Below are positions 32,563 to 38,336 of a DNA stretch of 52,376 nucleotides, piece after piece (the first letter of the stretch is position 1; the number at the start of each line of letters is the position of its first letter). A model generated the notes under the pieces. The model ran no database searches. It saw only the letters and a list, made by a program, of their open reading frames with translations, and was not told the origin of the DNA. The stretch is from Clostridia bacterium (GTDB lineage: Bacteria; Bacillota; Sulfobacillia; RBS10-35; JADGHG01), in contig JADGHG010000003.1 in NCBI GenBank assembly GCA_019689585.1, forward strand, positions 1 through 52,376. The letters run 5' to 3'. A program made the translations under genes and the position numbers.

Positions 32563-34058
32563 CGGCGGTCACCCTCACGATCTCCCGGCCCCGACCGCGG
32601 GCGCGAGGCCGGCGGCCCCGACCGCGGGGGTGAGGCCGGCGGCGCCACCGCCTGCGAGAGCCCGGGCACGGCCGCGCGCGGGAACGTCCGCGCCTCGCGC
32701 GGCGATGTCTCCGCGTCGCGCCCCGCGCGGGACACCCGCACCCGTCCCGCCGCGATCACCGTGTGCGCCAGGTTCGCGCCCATCCGGTACGGCAGGTGCG
32801 CGAGCGCCGGGCAGTCCCAGATCACGATGTCCGCGCGCGCCCCGGGTTCGAGCGAACCCGCGCGTCCGCCGCGCCCGAGAGCGAAGGCAGCGTTGCGCGT
32901 CGCGGCGACGAGCGCCTCCTCGGGCGTCATCCGGAGGAGGAGGCAGGCGAGGCTCATGACGAGCGGCAGCGAGAAGCCGGGCTGCGTGCCTGGGTTCGCG
33001 TCCGTCCCCAGGGCCACGGGCACCCCGGCCGCGATGAGCTCCCGCGCGGCCGCGTGGCGCGGCTTCATGAGGAAGAACGAGGTCGCGGGCAGGAGGCAGG
33101 CGACCGTCCCGGAGTCGCGGAGCGCGGCGAAATCCCCGGGCGGCGTGACGGCGAGGTGGTCGGCCGATACGGCGCCGAGCTCGGCCGCGATGCGGGCCCC
33201 GCCCAGGTGGTGCACCTCGTCCGCGTGGATCTTCCGCCCGAGCCCGGCCCGCCGCCCGGCCTCGAGGACGAGGCGCGCCTCCTCCGGCCCGAAGGCGCCG
33301 TCCTCGCAGAACACGTCGACGAATTCGGCGAGGCTCTCCCGGGCGACGGCGGGGATCATCTCGCGGGCGACGAGCTCCGCGTACTCGCGCGCGCGGCCGG
33401 CGAACTCGGGCGGCACGGCGTGCGCGCCGAGGAAGGTGGCGACGACCTCCTGGCCTGTCCCCTCGGGCGAGGCGGCCCAGAGGGCGGCGCGCCGGATGGC
33501 GCGGAGCTGCTTCAACTCCGTGGCGAGGTCGAGGCCGTAGCCGCTCTTCACCTCGACCGTCGTCGTGCCCAGGCGCAGGAGCTCGAGAAGCCGTGCGCGG
33601 AGCGAATCGAAGAGCTCGTCCTCCGTGGCCTCGCGCGTGGCGCGGACCGTCTGCAGGATCCCGCCCCCCGCCTTGAGGATCTCGAGATAGTCGCGCCCCT
33701 CGATGCGCATGCGGAACTCCTCCGCGCGCCACCCGGCGAAGCAGAGGTGGGTGTGGCAGTCGACGAGCCCCGGGGTGACGAGCCGGCCCTCGGCGTCGAC
33801 GACGGTCGCGTCGGGCGTGGGCTCCACCGCCGCGAGCACCTCGGCCTCGGGGCCGGCGGCCACGATGCGACCGCGGAAGGCCGCGACGGCGCCGCCCCGC
33901 ACGAGGCCGGCCTCCCCTTGGGCCTGTCCGGCGAATGGGCGCCGCGGACCGGGAGGCGCGGAGGACGCGCCCCCTCCGACCGCGGCGCTCGACACGGTCG
34001 CGAGCTCGCCCGCACCGCGGACGACGAGGTCGGCGGGGAGAGTCGCTGCCTGGTCCAT
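32559..34058 (-). CDS. hutI: Imidazolonepropionase
   Basis: [76 protein letters not shown]. Confidence 0.93.
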   Translation of the reverse strand: MDQAATLPADLVVRGAGELATVSSAAVGGGASSAPPGPRRPFAGQAQGEAGLVRGGAVAAFRGRIVAAGPEAEVLAAVEPTPDATVVDAEGRLVTPGLVDCHTHLCFAGWRAEEFRMRIEGRDYLEILKAGGGILQTVRATREATEDELFDSLRARLLELLRLGTTTVEVKSGYGLDLATELKQLRAIRRAALWAASPEGTGQEVVATFLGAHAVPPEFAGRAREYAELVAREMIPAVARESLAEFVDVFCEDGAFGPEEARLVLEAGRRAGLGRKIHADEVHHLGGARIAAELGAVSADHLAVTPPGDFAALRDSGTVACLLPATSFFLMKPRHAAARELIAAGVPVALGTDANPGTQPGFSLPLVMSLACLLLRMTPEEALVAATRNAAFALGRGGRAGSLEPGARADIVIWDCPALAHLPYRMGANLAHTVIAAGRVRVSRAGRDAETSPREARTFPRAAVPGLSQAVAPPASPPRSGPPASRPRSGPGDREGDRR

Positions 34059-34231
34059 GGTGCGATGGCTTCGCCGCCGACAGCCCCGTTCCCGCCAGGG
34101 CGCGGTCCCAGCCCGGGTCCCACGCGCCGTCCGGCCATACCGCAGCCCTCTGACCGTCGACGAAACCGAGTCGACTTCAGAGTGGCCCATAACCCGTCCA
34201 CGAAGTACCATACAGATACCAAAGTAGAGAC

Positions 34232-34451
34232 ATGCGAGGTCGTATATCCCAGGACGCAGGCCAGGCCCCGCGTCCGACAGGTCTTCGGCTTCGACCACGA
34301 GTTGGTCGCTCGGATCGAGGAGGTGTCTGCCGGGCTCGACATCTTCCAGCGCGACCTGGTCGAGCGGGCCATCCGCCAATACCTCGACCGGCACGCTGGC
34401 GAAGTCGGGCACAAGCGGGGGGAGGTGGGGCGAGAAGGGCTGAGAACGTAG
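34232..34451 (+). pseudogene. Ribbon-helix-helix DNA-binding protein, start unclear (possible frameshift)
   Basis: Frame ending 34451 reads RVRQVFGFDHELVARIEEVSAGLDIFQRDLVERAIRQYLDRHAGEVGHKRGEV (RHH-like) with no ATG/GTG upstream; ATG 34232 is in another frame. Confidence 0.45.
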
Positions 34452-34474
34452 CCGTCGGGTGGGTGGCTTAGCCA

Positions 34475-34487
34475 CCTAGACTCTAGG
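34475..34487. promoter_or_regulatory. Perfect 13-nt palindrome CCTAGA-C-TCTAGG, candidate operator
   Basis: Exact dyad immediately upstream of the SD of the 34503 precursor; a second dyad GGTGGC-TTA-GCCACC lies at 34462-34476. Confidence 0.45.
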
Positions 34488-34502
34488 AAGGGAGTGCGAG
34501 GG

Positions 34503-35144
34503 ATGAGCGTGTGGCTGCGCGGAACTGCCGTACTGCTTTTGGTGGCCGCGATCGTCACCATCTCCAGTTCTGCCATTGCGGGGGCCACGAACCAGGGCCA
34601 GTGGAGGCCCGCCTCAGCGACAGAGGTCCTAGGGGTGCTCGGCGAACGGCACCTGGGGGCCGCCGGACTGCTGACCCAGGGCGCCGTGACGTACACCGCC
34701 ACGGATGGCACCCTCTCCACGTTCGTCCCCGCCGCCACGCAGACGCCGGAGTTCCTGGGCATCCTCATCGTCACGACCCCGGAGGGCCAGACCTTGGTCT
34801 ATCGGGCGTCGATGACGGTGAGTGCCCGGGGATCGACGGTCACGCTTGAGGGAACCCGCGGGGAGCCGACCGTGGTTCAGGACGTGGGGCACGTGTCCCT
34901 GCCCAAGCCGGCGAACCGAAGTGCCACCGGCGCAAGCGGTGGCGGGGTGTCCGCCGACAGTTACGTGGGTGGACTGATCTGTGGTGTAGTGTGCCCGGTC
35001 GTCGTGTGGTATACGTTAAACCCGGTAACTCTGGAGGGACAGTTAGCAGCTGGCGTCCTCTGCTACGTCATCTGCACGCCTCCCCCTGGAGGGGGACCGG
35101 TGGCACCTGGCACGGGCGGATGCACCAATGGATGCGCGAACTAG
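34503..35144 (+). CDS. Putative secreted Cys-peptide precursor (halocin C8-like architecture)
   Basis: Signal MSVWLRGTAVLLLVAAIVTISSSAIAG; ~150-aa N-terminal domain; C-terminus SYVGGLICGVVCPVVVWYTLNPVTLEGQLAAGVLCYVICTPPPGGGPVAPGTGGCTNGCAN. Confidence 0.65.
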   Translation: MSVWLRGTAVLLLVAAIVTISSSAIAGATNQGQWRPASATEVLGVLGERHLGAAGLLTQGAVTYTATDGTLSTFVPAATQTPEFLGILIVTTPEGQTLVYRASMTVSARGSTVTLEGTRGEPTVVQDVGHVSLPKPANRSATGASGGGVSADSYVGGLICGVVCPVVVWYTLNPVTLEGQLAAGVLCYVICTPPPGGGPVAPGTGGCTNGCAN

Positions 35145-35156
35145 AAGGGGTTGACG

Positions 35157-35378
35157 ATGGCACCGATACGGAGCCGCAAGGAACACCTAGAACTGCTGGG
35201 GCGGCTCTACTTCGGGTGGAGTGTGACTGAGGCCCTGGTCTTGTGGAGCCACGTGCCGCTCATCGGGAAGATCGGCCTCGTCCTCTTGGTCGGGTCCGGG
35301 TACTTCGTGGCCCGGAAATACGGTCGGATGAAGGGCTTTCTGGCCGGATTCCGTCAGGACCAGGGCAAGACTGGCTGA
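35157..35378 (+). CDS. Small membrane protein, unit 1 (candidate immunity/accessory)
   Basis: MAPIRSRKEHLELLGRLYFGWSVTEALVLWSHVPLIGKIGLVLLVGSGYFVARKYGRMKGFL; 12 nt after the precursor stop. Confidence 0.65.
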   Translation: MAPIRSRKEHLELLGRLYFGWSVTEALVLWSHVPLIGKIGLVLLVGSGYFVARKYGRMKGFLAGFRQDQGKTG

Positions 35379-35380
35379 GT

Positions 35381-35413
35381 GCCGGTGCCGCCCCGTGGCT
35401 GGGCGGCACGGGC
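35381..35413 (+). terminator. Hairpin after unit 1
   Basis: GCCGGTGCCGCCC / GGGCGGCACGGGC, 13-bp stem with one mismatch. Confidence 0.6.
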
Positions 35414-35454
35414 TACCTCGGCCGTGGTGGTGGGAGGAGGCGGCCGAACCCCGT

Positions 35455-35554
35455 AGCCGCCATAGTCATGTGCTACGTGCTTTGCGCCCCTGTCGACGGC
35501 GGCGCACCGCCAACACCGGGTACAGGCGGATGCACGAATGGATGCGCGAATTAA
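35455..35554 (+). pseudogene. Remnant of duplicated Cys-peptide precursor C-terminus
   Basis: AAIVMCYVLCAPVDGGAPPTPGTGGCTNGCAN* matches unit 1 GVLCYVICTPPPGGGPVAPGTGGCTNGCAN*; rest of the gene absent. Confidence 0.75.
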
Positions 35555-35565
35555 GGGGTTTGAAA

Positions 35566-35787
35566 ATGGTCCCCATACGGAGTTGGAAGGAGTTCCTTCA
35601 AATCCTCGCGCGGTTCTTCGCAGCGTGGAGCGTCTTGCTGGCCCTGATGTCGTGGCGCTACGTACCGCTCATCGGGAAGGTCGCCTTGGTGCTCCTGATC
35701 TGCGTCGCGTGGTTCGTCGCTCGGAAGTACGGGGGCATGAAGGGCTTCCTGGCCGAGTTCCGCGAGGACCGAGGCAAGGATGTCTGA
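35566..35787 (+). CDS. Small membrane protein, unit 2
   Basis: MVPIRSWKEFLQILARFFAAWSVLLALMSWRYVPLIGKVALVLLICVAWFVARKYGGMKGFLAEFREDRGKDV, clear paralog of unit 1. Confidence 0.7.
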   Translation: MVPIRSWKEFLQILARFFAAWSVLLALMSWRYVPLIGKVALVLLICVAWFVARKYGGMKGFLAEFREDRGKDV

Positions 35788-35789
35788 CA

Positions 35790-35983
35790 CGAGTTGAAAG
35801 GAACTGCTAGAAAGGCTAGCGCGGTACTGCTGGGGGTTCAGCCTGTGTGTGGCCTTCAGCTCATGGCACTACGTACCGCTCATTGGGAAGATCGGCCTCG
35901 TACTCCTGGTCGAGGTCGGGTGCTTCGCGGCCGGAAAGTACGGCCGGGCGAGGTGGTTCAACGAGGACCTAGGCGACGGCTGA
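35790..35983 (+). pseudogene. Small membrane protein, unit 3 (decayed)
   Basis: S*KELLERLARYCWGFSLCVAFSSWHYVPLIGKIGLVLLVEVGCFAAGKYGRARWFNEDLGDG*; start lost and the Trp of SWKE is TGA. Confidence 0.72.
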
Positions 35984-36000
35984 ATTAAGGCCGGTCGAGT

Positions 36001-36033
36001 GCCGGTGCCGCCCCGCCACAGGGCGGCACCGGC
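36001..36033 (+). terminator. Hairpin after unit 3
   Basis: GCCGGTGCCGCCC-CGCCACA-GGGCGGCACCGGC, perfect 13-bp stem, near-identical to the 35381 hairpin. Confidence 0.65.
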
Positions 36034-36046
36034 TGCCCCCCGTGCA

Positions 36047-36527
36047 TCACCGCTTGACGCGTCCGAACCGCAGCCGGGCGCCGGGCGCGAGCTCGGCCAG
36101 ACGGCCGAGGTCGGCCTCGGAGATCACAGTGCGCAGAATGCCGCCGCCCGAGTTCAGGTTCTCGATAGTCGCGCCCCTCGAGGCGCATGCGGAACTCCTC
36201 GGCCCGCCAGCCGGCGAAGCAGAGGTGGGTGTGCGCGCCGACGAGCCCCGGGGTGACGAGCCGGCCCTCGGCGTCGACGACGGTCGCGTCGGGGGTCAGC
36301 TCCACCGCCGCGAGCACCTCGGCCTCAGGGCCGGCCGCGACGACGCGGCCCCGGAAGGCCGCCACGGCGCCGCCCGGGACGACCCCTGCCTCGCCCTGGG
36401 CCCGCCCGGCGAACGGCCGGGGTGGGCCGGAAGGTGCGCCCGTCTCCGCGGCCGCGCCCGACGCGGTCGCGAGCTCGCCCGCGCCGTGGACGATGAGGTC
36501 GGCGGGGAGGCGCCGCGGCTCACCCAT
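36047..36527 (-). pseudogene. Chimeric pseudogene: hutI 5' portion joined to pxpC/kipA 3' portion
   Basis: [24 protein letters not shown]...[22 protein letters not shown] then a 2-nt deletion, then [34 protein letters not shown], the last part matching the pxpC tail [24 protein letters not shown]. Confidence 0.85.
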
Positions 36528-36587
36528 CGTGCGATGGCTTCGCCGTCGGCCGCCAGGTTCCCGCCCGGACCCGCGCCGGCCGGTCCC

Positions 36588-38336
36588 TTACCCCTTGGCC
36601 CGGGCGAAGCGGAGCCGAGCGCCCGGCGCGAGTTGCGCGAGGCGGTCGAGGTCGGCTTCGCAGACCACTGCGATCTTCGGGTAGCCCCCGATCGTCTGCG
36701 CATCGGCAAGGAGCACGATGGGCGTCCCGTCGCCCGTCACCTGGATGGTGCCGTGCGGGATGGGCTCGGAGAGCGGCTCCCGCCCCGGGGACACTGGAAG
36801 GGCCGGGCCGAGGAGCCGCATGCCCATCCGGTCCGAGGCGGGCCCGACCCGCCAGACCGTACCGAAGAAGGTCTCGCTCGCCGAGGGGCCCAGGCACCCG
36901 CCGTCGGGGCCCGTAAGGGCGCGGACGGTGACGAGATCGACGCCCCCTCGCGCACCGCTTGGGGCAGGCCCGGTCCCCCGCGCGCCCTGCCCCGCCCAGG
37001 GGGCTTCCGCGTGCGGCGCGTGCGGCGCGTGCTCGTCGCCGGGCGGTGTGCCGAGCGGCAGGAGGTCCCCCGGCCGGAGCGCCCGGCCGGCAAGGCCGCC
37101 GATGCCCGAGCGCAGGTCGGTCGCGCGGCTCCCTCCGACGACCGGGACGTCGAATCCCCCCTCGACCGCCAGGTACGCGCGAAGCCCGCTCCGCCGCCCG
37201 CGGAAGACGAGGCGGGAACCCGGTCGCAGCTCTCCGACCTCGCCCGGAGCGAGCGGCCGTCCGTCAAGCTCGGCGCCGAGGTCCGCGCCCGCCACCGCGA
37301 CGCGCCGCGGCGGGGCGCCCCCGGGCGCCCGGCAGTCGAGCGCCGGGCCGCGCAGCGTCACCTCGAGCCCGGCCGCGCCGTCGGGGTTGCCCACCCTCCG
37401 GTTGGCCATCCGGAGCGCGCCGCGGTCCAAGGCGCCGGCGAGCGGGAAGCCGAGCTCGCGCCAGGCCATTCGGCCGAGGTCCTGGACCGTCGTGAGAAGC
37501 CCGGCCTCGCGCACGAGGAGCGCCCACGAGGCCGCCTCGGTCGCCCTCTCGGCAGCCTCGCGCACGCGCGTCTCCCACGCGGCCGCCTCGGCCGCCTCGC
37601 GCTCCTCGATCCGCCGGAACTCCGCCTCGCCGATGGGCTCGAAGCGCACAGCGTCGCCCGGGCGGATGAGGACCGGCGGGTCCTCCCAGGGCCGGTACAC
37701 GAGGCGTGGGGTTCGGCCCAGGATGCGCCAGCCGCCGGGGCTCTCGCTCGGGTAGACGGCCGTCTGCCGGCCTGCGACGGCGACCGACCCGGCGGGCACC
37801 CGAGTGCGCGGCTGGGGCAGCCTTGGTACCGCGAGATCCTCGGGCAGCGCGCCGAGGTAGGCGAAGCCCGGCGCGAAGCCGAGGCAGAAGGCGTGGTAGC
37901 GCGTCTCCGAATGCCGGCGCACGACCTCCTCGGGCGTGCGCCGGAGAAGGCGCGCGACCTCCGCCAGGTCGGGGCCGTGCGCGCCGCCGTACAGGACCGG
38001 GATGACGACCGTTGAGGGCGGCGCCGCGCGCGCGAGCGCGGCCTCCCCGCCGCGGCCGCTCAAAAGCCGCGCGGCCTCGCGACGCAGAAGCTCGGCAGCG
38101 GGCGCGAGGCCACCCGGCGCCGCCTCTCCGGAAAGCTCCAGGTACAGCGAAGCGTACCCGACGAGGACCGCCGCCGCCCGGCCGCCGAACCCCGCGCGGA
38201 GCCGGCCGGCCAAGGCGTGGAGCCGCCCGTTGACGTCTACATCGGGGCCCTCGACCGCGACGCGGAGGAGGAGGCCGCGCTCCCCGAAGGGGAGGACAGC
38301 GAACGCCGCCGCGCCTCGCCGGGTCTCCCAGGCCAC
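36588..38336 (-). CDS. 5-oxoprolinase subunits B-C fusion (PxpB/KipI-PxpC/KipA)
   Basis: VLYGGAHGPDLAEVARLL, FCLGFAPGFAYLGALPEDLAVPRL (KipI) followed by LLTTVQDLGRMAWRELGFPLAGALDRGALRMANRRVGN (KipA). Confidence 0.92.
   Translation of the reverse strand: MAWETRRGAAAFAVLPFGERGLLLRVAVEGPDVDVNGRLHALAGRLRAGFGGRAAAVLVGYASLYLELSGEAAPGGLAPAAELLRREAARLLSGRGGEAALARAAPPSTVVIPVLYGGAHGPDLAEVARLLRRTPEEVVRRHSETRYHAFCLGFAPGFAYLGALPEDLAVPRLPQPRTRVPAGSVAVAGRQTAVYPSESPGGWRILGRTPRLVYRPWEDPPVLIRPGDAVRFEPIGEAEFRRIEEREAAEAAAWETRVREAAERATEAASWALLVREAGLLTTVQDLGRMAWRELGFPLAGALDRGALRMANRRVGNPDGAAGLEVTLRGPALDCRAPGGAPPRRVAVAGADLGAELDGRPLAPGEVGELRPGSRLVFRGRRSGLRAYLAVEGGFDVPVVGGSRATDLRSGIGGLAGRALRPGDLLPLGTPPGDEHAPHAPHAEAPWAGQGARGTGPAPSGARGGVDLVTVRALTGPDGGCLGPSASETFFGTVWRVGPASDRMGMRLLGPALPVSPGREPLSEPIPHGTIQVTGDGTPIVLLADAQTIGGYPKIAVVCEADLDRLAQLAPGARLRFARAKG

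Follow-up and report, generated by a model that had tools for sequence, protein, structure and literature searches.

Tandem copies of a candidate immunity gene and an orphan precursor tail in a putative bacteriocin-type locus of a Clostridia bacterium

How can a locus come to contain more copies of a small membrane-protein gene than of the precursor gene in front of it? This question is raised by a cassette found in a window of 52,376 nucleotides (the whole stretch of DNA that was analysed) from a Clostridia bacterium, whose assembly is fragmented (1.86 Mb in 173 contigs). The membrane-protein gene is present there as two intact copies and a broken one, and the precursor as one intact gene and one tail. 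This agrees with the original prediction, according to which the membrane gene is kept more often than the precursor, as would be expected of immunity genes that outlive their toxin.

Organization of the cassette

The cassette (about 34105-36048; Table 1) has a G+C content of 65%, compared to 72% for the window. It lies inside a partial duplication, with an intact hutI on its left and a pxpC/hutI fragment on its right, these names being assigned by reading of the translations. Two segments of the right border could be matched to nearby copies: a duplicated pxpC 3' fragment (36049-36134), similar to 36590-36673 with 76.5% identity, and a duplicated hutI 5' fragment (36133-36569), similar to 33653-34100 with 83.6% identity. 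This extra copy, a hutI/pxpC fusion fragment on the minus strand, marks the site of the cassette. The low G+C content and the duplicated hutI/pxpC border are consistent with a foreign origin, and the partial duplication around the cassette suggests that it arrived with recombining DNA. No clean pre-insertion (empty) site was found in relatives; in the closest relative of the order, hutI stands in a different gene context.

Table 1. Features of the cassette and of its right border, with positions in the window
Feature	Position	Strand	Basis or remark
Ribbon-helix-helix (RHH)-type regulator ORF, 89 aa, GTG start (assigned here)	34182-34451	+	PHROG phrog_3887, E 8e-4
Two overlapping palindromes, GGTGGCTTAGCCACC and CCTAGACTCTAGG, candidate operator	34462-34487		between RHH ORF and precursor; putative
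Precursor, 213 aa	34503-35144	+	gene-like GC by codon position
Small membrane protein of unit 1, 73 aa, candidate immunity gene	35157-35378	+	two helices predicted
Hairpin 1, 13-bp arms, one mismatch	35381-35413		fold -30 kcal/mol, z -3.5
Orphan precursor 3' tail, last 33 codons, stop TAA	about 35453-35553	+	E 8.2e-9
Intact small membrane protein of unit 2, 73 aa	35566-35787	+	60% aa identity to unit 1
Unit 3 membrane-protein pseudogene	35780-35983	+	in-frame TGA 35795-35797, small C-terminal deletions
Hairpin 2, perfect 13-bp stem	36001-36033		fold -32 kcal/mol, z -4.2
pxpC 3' and hutI 5' fusion fragment, flanking partial duplication	36049-36673	-	identity to nearby copies

The first ORF matches a PHROG transcriptional regulator family, with weaker matches to Pfam RHH models (E 0.12-0.17), and is likely to be the regulator of the cassette. 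Both palindromes just 5' of the precursor are perfect. Transport or maturation genes were absent from the cassette itself, no secretion or injection system linked to it was identified, and an Rfam scan of the window gave no match.

As judged from sequence and hydropathy, the precursor begins with a signal-peptide-like N-terminus with an AIA-G site. A middle region of approximately 120 aa leads to a hydrophobic C-terminal stretch, in which three C-x3-C pairs (CGVVC, CYVIC and CTNGC) are found. The precursor is probably the source of an exported, six-cysteine, bacteriocin-like peptide. Its structure model had a pLDDT of 42 and was discarded for fold comparison, and a PDB sequence search with the precursor returned no match. 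For the membrane protein, helices are predicted at residues 7-29 and 35-69 (pLDDT 62, a low confidence obtained with three sequences only), and the intact copies have a net charge of +6/+7.

The 33-nt hairpin reported originally after units 1 and 3 is present at both places, although hairpin 1, with arms GCCGGTGCCGCCC and GGGCGGCACGGGC, is not the perfect palindrome that had been described. The stem of hairpin 2 is among the two longest perfect ones in the window. The hairpin pattern is restricted, within the genome, to these two copies, the second of which sits between the cassette and the oppositely oriented gene fragments. Both folds are predicted to be stable and both hairpins are likely terminators, a role that stays putative because the U tract is absent.

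Tandem copies of the membrane-protein gene

A self-comparison of the region confirmed the existence of direct repeats, and the tandem duplication of cassette units is borne out by alignment scores far above those of shuffled sequences. Units 1 and 2 share 70.7% DNA identity over 335 nt (35044-35378 against 35454-35787), with a score of 275 for a shuffle maximum of 61. Units 2 and 3 are 67.1% identical over 210 nt (score 139, shuffle 45), and units 1 and 3, hairpin included, 69.0% identical over 268 nt (score 191, shuffle 45). DNA divergence between any two of the three membrane-gene copies is therefore roughly equal, at about 30%; had unit 3 been derived recently from unit 2, these two would be expected to be closer to each other. 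When the unit 1 membrane protein was searched against its own genome, exactly three places were found (E 3.5e-46, 1.7e-24 and 4e-13), of which the last is interrupted by a single TGA. The same search with the precursor gave two places only, the whole gene and positions 35453-35551, where the match was that given for the tail in Table 1.

The presence of an orphan precursor tail after unit 1 is thereby established, as is the intact state of the unit 2 membrane gene, whose ATG is preceded by the ribosome-binding-site-like sequence AAGGGG. The tail has 70% aa identity to the intact precursor; it includes two of the three C-x3-C pairs, and its last 12 residues are identical to those of the precursor. 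The description of the third copy, said to have a lost start and an internal TGA, was right for the TGA and needed correction for the start: an in-frame ATG exists at 35780, overlapping the unit 2 stop and reading MSDTS*, and it is the conserved MxPIR start that is gone. The TGA is in register with the Trp codon (TGG) of the unit 2 sequence SWKE. It may be a sequencing error, since a single base creates it and the assembly is fragmented.

The spacing of the units drops from 409 nt to 211 nt, so that the unit 2/3 junction lacks approximately 200 nt, corresponding to a hairpin, a precursor tail and the initial codons of unit 3; no precursor remnant was found 5' of unit 3. A single deletion of this length would explain the absence of both the unit 2 hairpin and the unit 3 tail.

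Selection on the copies

Selection was estimated with Nei-Gojobori counts and Fisher tests, pairwise within the single locus. The comparison of units 1 and 2, proposed with the original prediction as a check, gave a dS of 0.69 and a dN of 0.29, that is, a dN/dS ratio of 0.42 (P = 0.005), so that both copies must have been maintained as protein-coding genes over a large part of their past. The ratios for units 1 and 3 (0.68, P = 0.26) and for units 2 and 3 (0.60, P = 0.14) were not significant, so that unit 3 is indistinguishable from neutral, as for a pseudogene. Between the tail and the intact precursor the ratio was 0.20 (dS 1.14, dN 0.23, P = 8e-4), indicating strong constraint on the C-terminal end of the peptide in the period when it was a gene; such pairwise ratios, including that of units 1 and 2, record past constraint and are blind to whether it still acts on unit 2 or on the tail. 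The idea that the membrane genes may have outlived the toxin as immunity genes fits the ratio between units 1 and 2 at this one locus.

These values bear on an explanation of the locus by partial tandem duplication alone, in the absence of selection. A block of about 410 nt, reaching from mid-precursor as far as the hairpin, would have been duplicated, perhaps twice, with the extra copies drifting, and the excess of membrane genes would only reflect where the duplication ended. The 409-nt unit indeed has its 5' end within the precursor gene and its 3' end close to the hairpin, which yields an orphan tail with no need for decay, and both the broken state of unit 3 and the nearly equal divergence of the three copies are accounted for. 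We nevertheless consider this explanation unlikely: a neutral copy so old would be expected to carry stops, whereas unit 2 is intact after about 30% divergence, has retained its ribosome-binding site, and shows constraint relative to unit 1.

Search for relatives

Only chance-level matches to the precursor or the membrane protein were obtained in about 200 related genomes, and the same was true for the membrane protein in 399 genomes of the phylum and for the precursor C-terminus in 154 genomes of the class. Pattern scans of 84,980 GTDB species and of IMG/VR, which rely on short conserved peptides and may miss distant relatives, also gave chance-level matches only. Plasmid and phage collections yielded no relative of either protein. 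Six of the weak matches were inspected in three reading frames, and none was accepted as a relative. Neither the precursor nor the membrane protein matched a family model of Pfam, NCBIfam or PHROG, the unit 2 protein being covered by the NCBIfam comparison. With the RHH regulator used as an anchor for similar cassettes, only its own genome was returned. The peptide family thus appears to be new, with no relatives in the collections searched, and the cassette proteins either belong to a very narrow family or have diverged beyond the reach of the searches used.

Possible history of the locus

The explanation that we retain, with moderate confidence, is that of a bacteriocin-type locus formed by a secreted peptide and a membrane immunity gene, in which units 2 and 3 are orphan immunity modules. 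The RHH regulator would control an exported 213-aa precursor, from which the C-terminal, six-cysteine hydrophobic peptide would be freed outside the cell and attack closely related organisms at their membranes. Protection of the producer would come from the small, cationic membrane protein with two helices that is encoded directly 3' of the precursor. Units 2 and 3, and with them an extra block of precursor 3' end, immunity gene and terminator, may have been generated by partial tandem duplication, or left behind when a newer block of precursor, immunity gene and terminator was inserted upstream. The deletion of about 200 nt would have come later, taking the unit 2 hairpin and the unit 3 start, and thereby fusing units 2 and 3.

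The original prediction spoke of decay of the peptide cassette. This holds for the third copy; for the tail, in-place decay is not the sole route. The present arrangement would equally result from a duplication starting inside the precursor, or from the arrival of a new effector-immunity block as in the T6SS model (PMC5361080), and in neither case would a second full precursor have had to decay in place. Partial duplication and effector displacement lead to one picture, and with one strain they are inseparable.

The orphan tail and unit 2 might alternatively form a silent module that recombines into the precursor and switches peptide and immunity, like the orphan modules of Rhs/CDI systems; replacement by orphan modules in Salmonella is cited in PMC5361080. 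The tail is a peptide C-terminus with its coding sense preserved (dN/dS 0.20), joined to an intact immunity-like gene, and its 12 identical last residues could act as a crossover site. It lacks, however, one of the three C-x3-C pairs, there is no second strain with a switch, and a constraint predating the orphaning of the tail gives the same numbers, so that we hold such a module to be quite improbable. Equally speculative is the broader proposal of a new, lineage-specific bacteriocin family with three C-x3-C pairs, whose reservoir of tail and immunity gene would switch the specificities of peptide and immunity together. There is also little to recommend a cell-surface or signalling role for the secreted protein, with the membrane protein as its partner (anchor, chaperone or sensor), for although no antimicrobial homolog was found and the middle region of about 120 aa is unexplained, a partner role would not explain why diverged copies stand in an array together with a remnant of the precursor, and a Cys-rich hydrophobic C-terminal tail is typical of peptide bacteriocins.

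Comparison with known systems

The reading as a bacteriocin-type locus invites comparison with halocin C8, for which production and immunity were reportedly assigned to a single gene by Sun and colleagues in 2005 (cited in PMC12893001). Halocin C8-like loci, on plasmids of Halobacterium salinarum and Haloferax larsenii, were found with a halocin C8 sequence as query; the comparison rests on the matched loci, as these are annotated independently as halocin C8-like. They share with the present locus an exported-type precursor in which a long N-terminal part is followed by a hydrophobic, Cys-rich peptide at the C-terminus, with a C-x3-C pair among its cysteines, features that were recognized here by sequence and hydropathy. 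In two of them, a 68-aa hydrophobic membrane protein is encoded 19-24 nt 3' of the precursor, which repeats the gene order seen here and speaks for the bacteriocin-type reading. They differ in having about 10 cysteines, compared to 6 in this precursor, and by a signal that is Tat-like there and Sec-like here (by eye), and the small membrane proteins of the two systems do not align.

Membership in the halocin C8 family was rejected. The precursor had no match to TIGR04449 (cut-off 24 bits) at E <= 10, and scanning its own genome with this model gave no match, while the known halocins, used as a control, were matched. Nor did it match PF22862 (Hac8_like_N), which recognizes the known halocins strongly. 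Profile comparison gave a 1% probability over 14 residues, which is noise level. On the halocin side, the 68-aa protein is conserved right after the halocin gene (2304-2510 in locus L087, 2299-2505 in L088), and a 75-aa hydrophobic protein is encoded divergently upstream in the same two loci. Both are possibly accessory immunity or export genes.

Orphan immunity arrays with effector remnants are already known from T6SS and T7SS. In the TspA/TsaI system of the Staphylococcus aureus T7SS, an array of membrane immunity genes lies 3' of the toxin gene, together with a toxin-gene fragment (PMC9484751). The likeness resides in the several copies of a membrane immunity gene, a candidate one here, and in the fragment; the toxin there is a large T7SS protein, the immunity proteins belong to DUF443, and the copies number 11. 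In the T6SS arrays of Vibrio cholerae, old immunity genes persist downstream of a more recent effector-immunity pair, and the 3' end of the effector that was displaced is found there too, in a shifted position (PMC5361080). Retained immunity genes, candidates in the present case, and a leftover effector 3' end are common to both situations, but those arrays hold heterogeneous immunity types and T6SS effectors, whereas a single family, with no linked injection system, is found here. The present locus has the layout of an orphan immunity-gene array, in that a single putative effector gene is followed by several candidate immunity genes homologous to each other, with a remnant of the effector 3' end among them. 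If our reading is correct, a bacteriocin family without known relatives would be added, immunity arrays of the kind seen for large injected toxins would also arise behind small secreted peptides, and the locus would offer a compact case for asking whether selection keeps orphan immunity genes.
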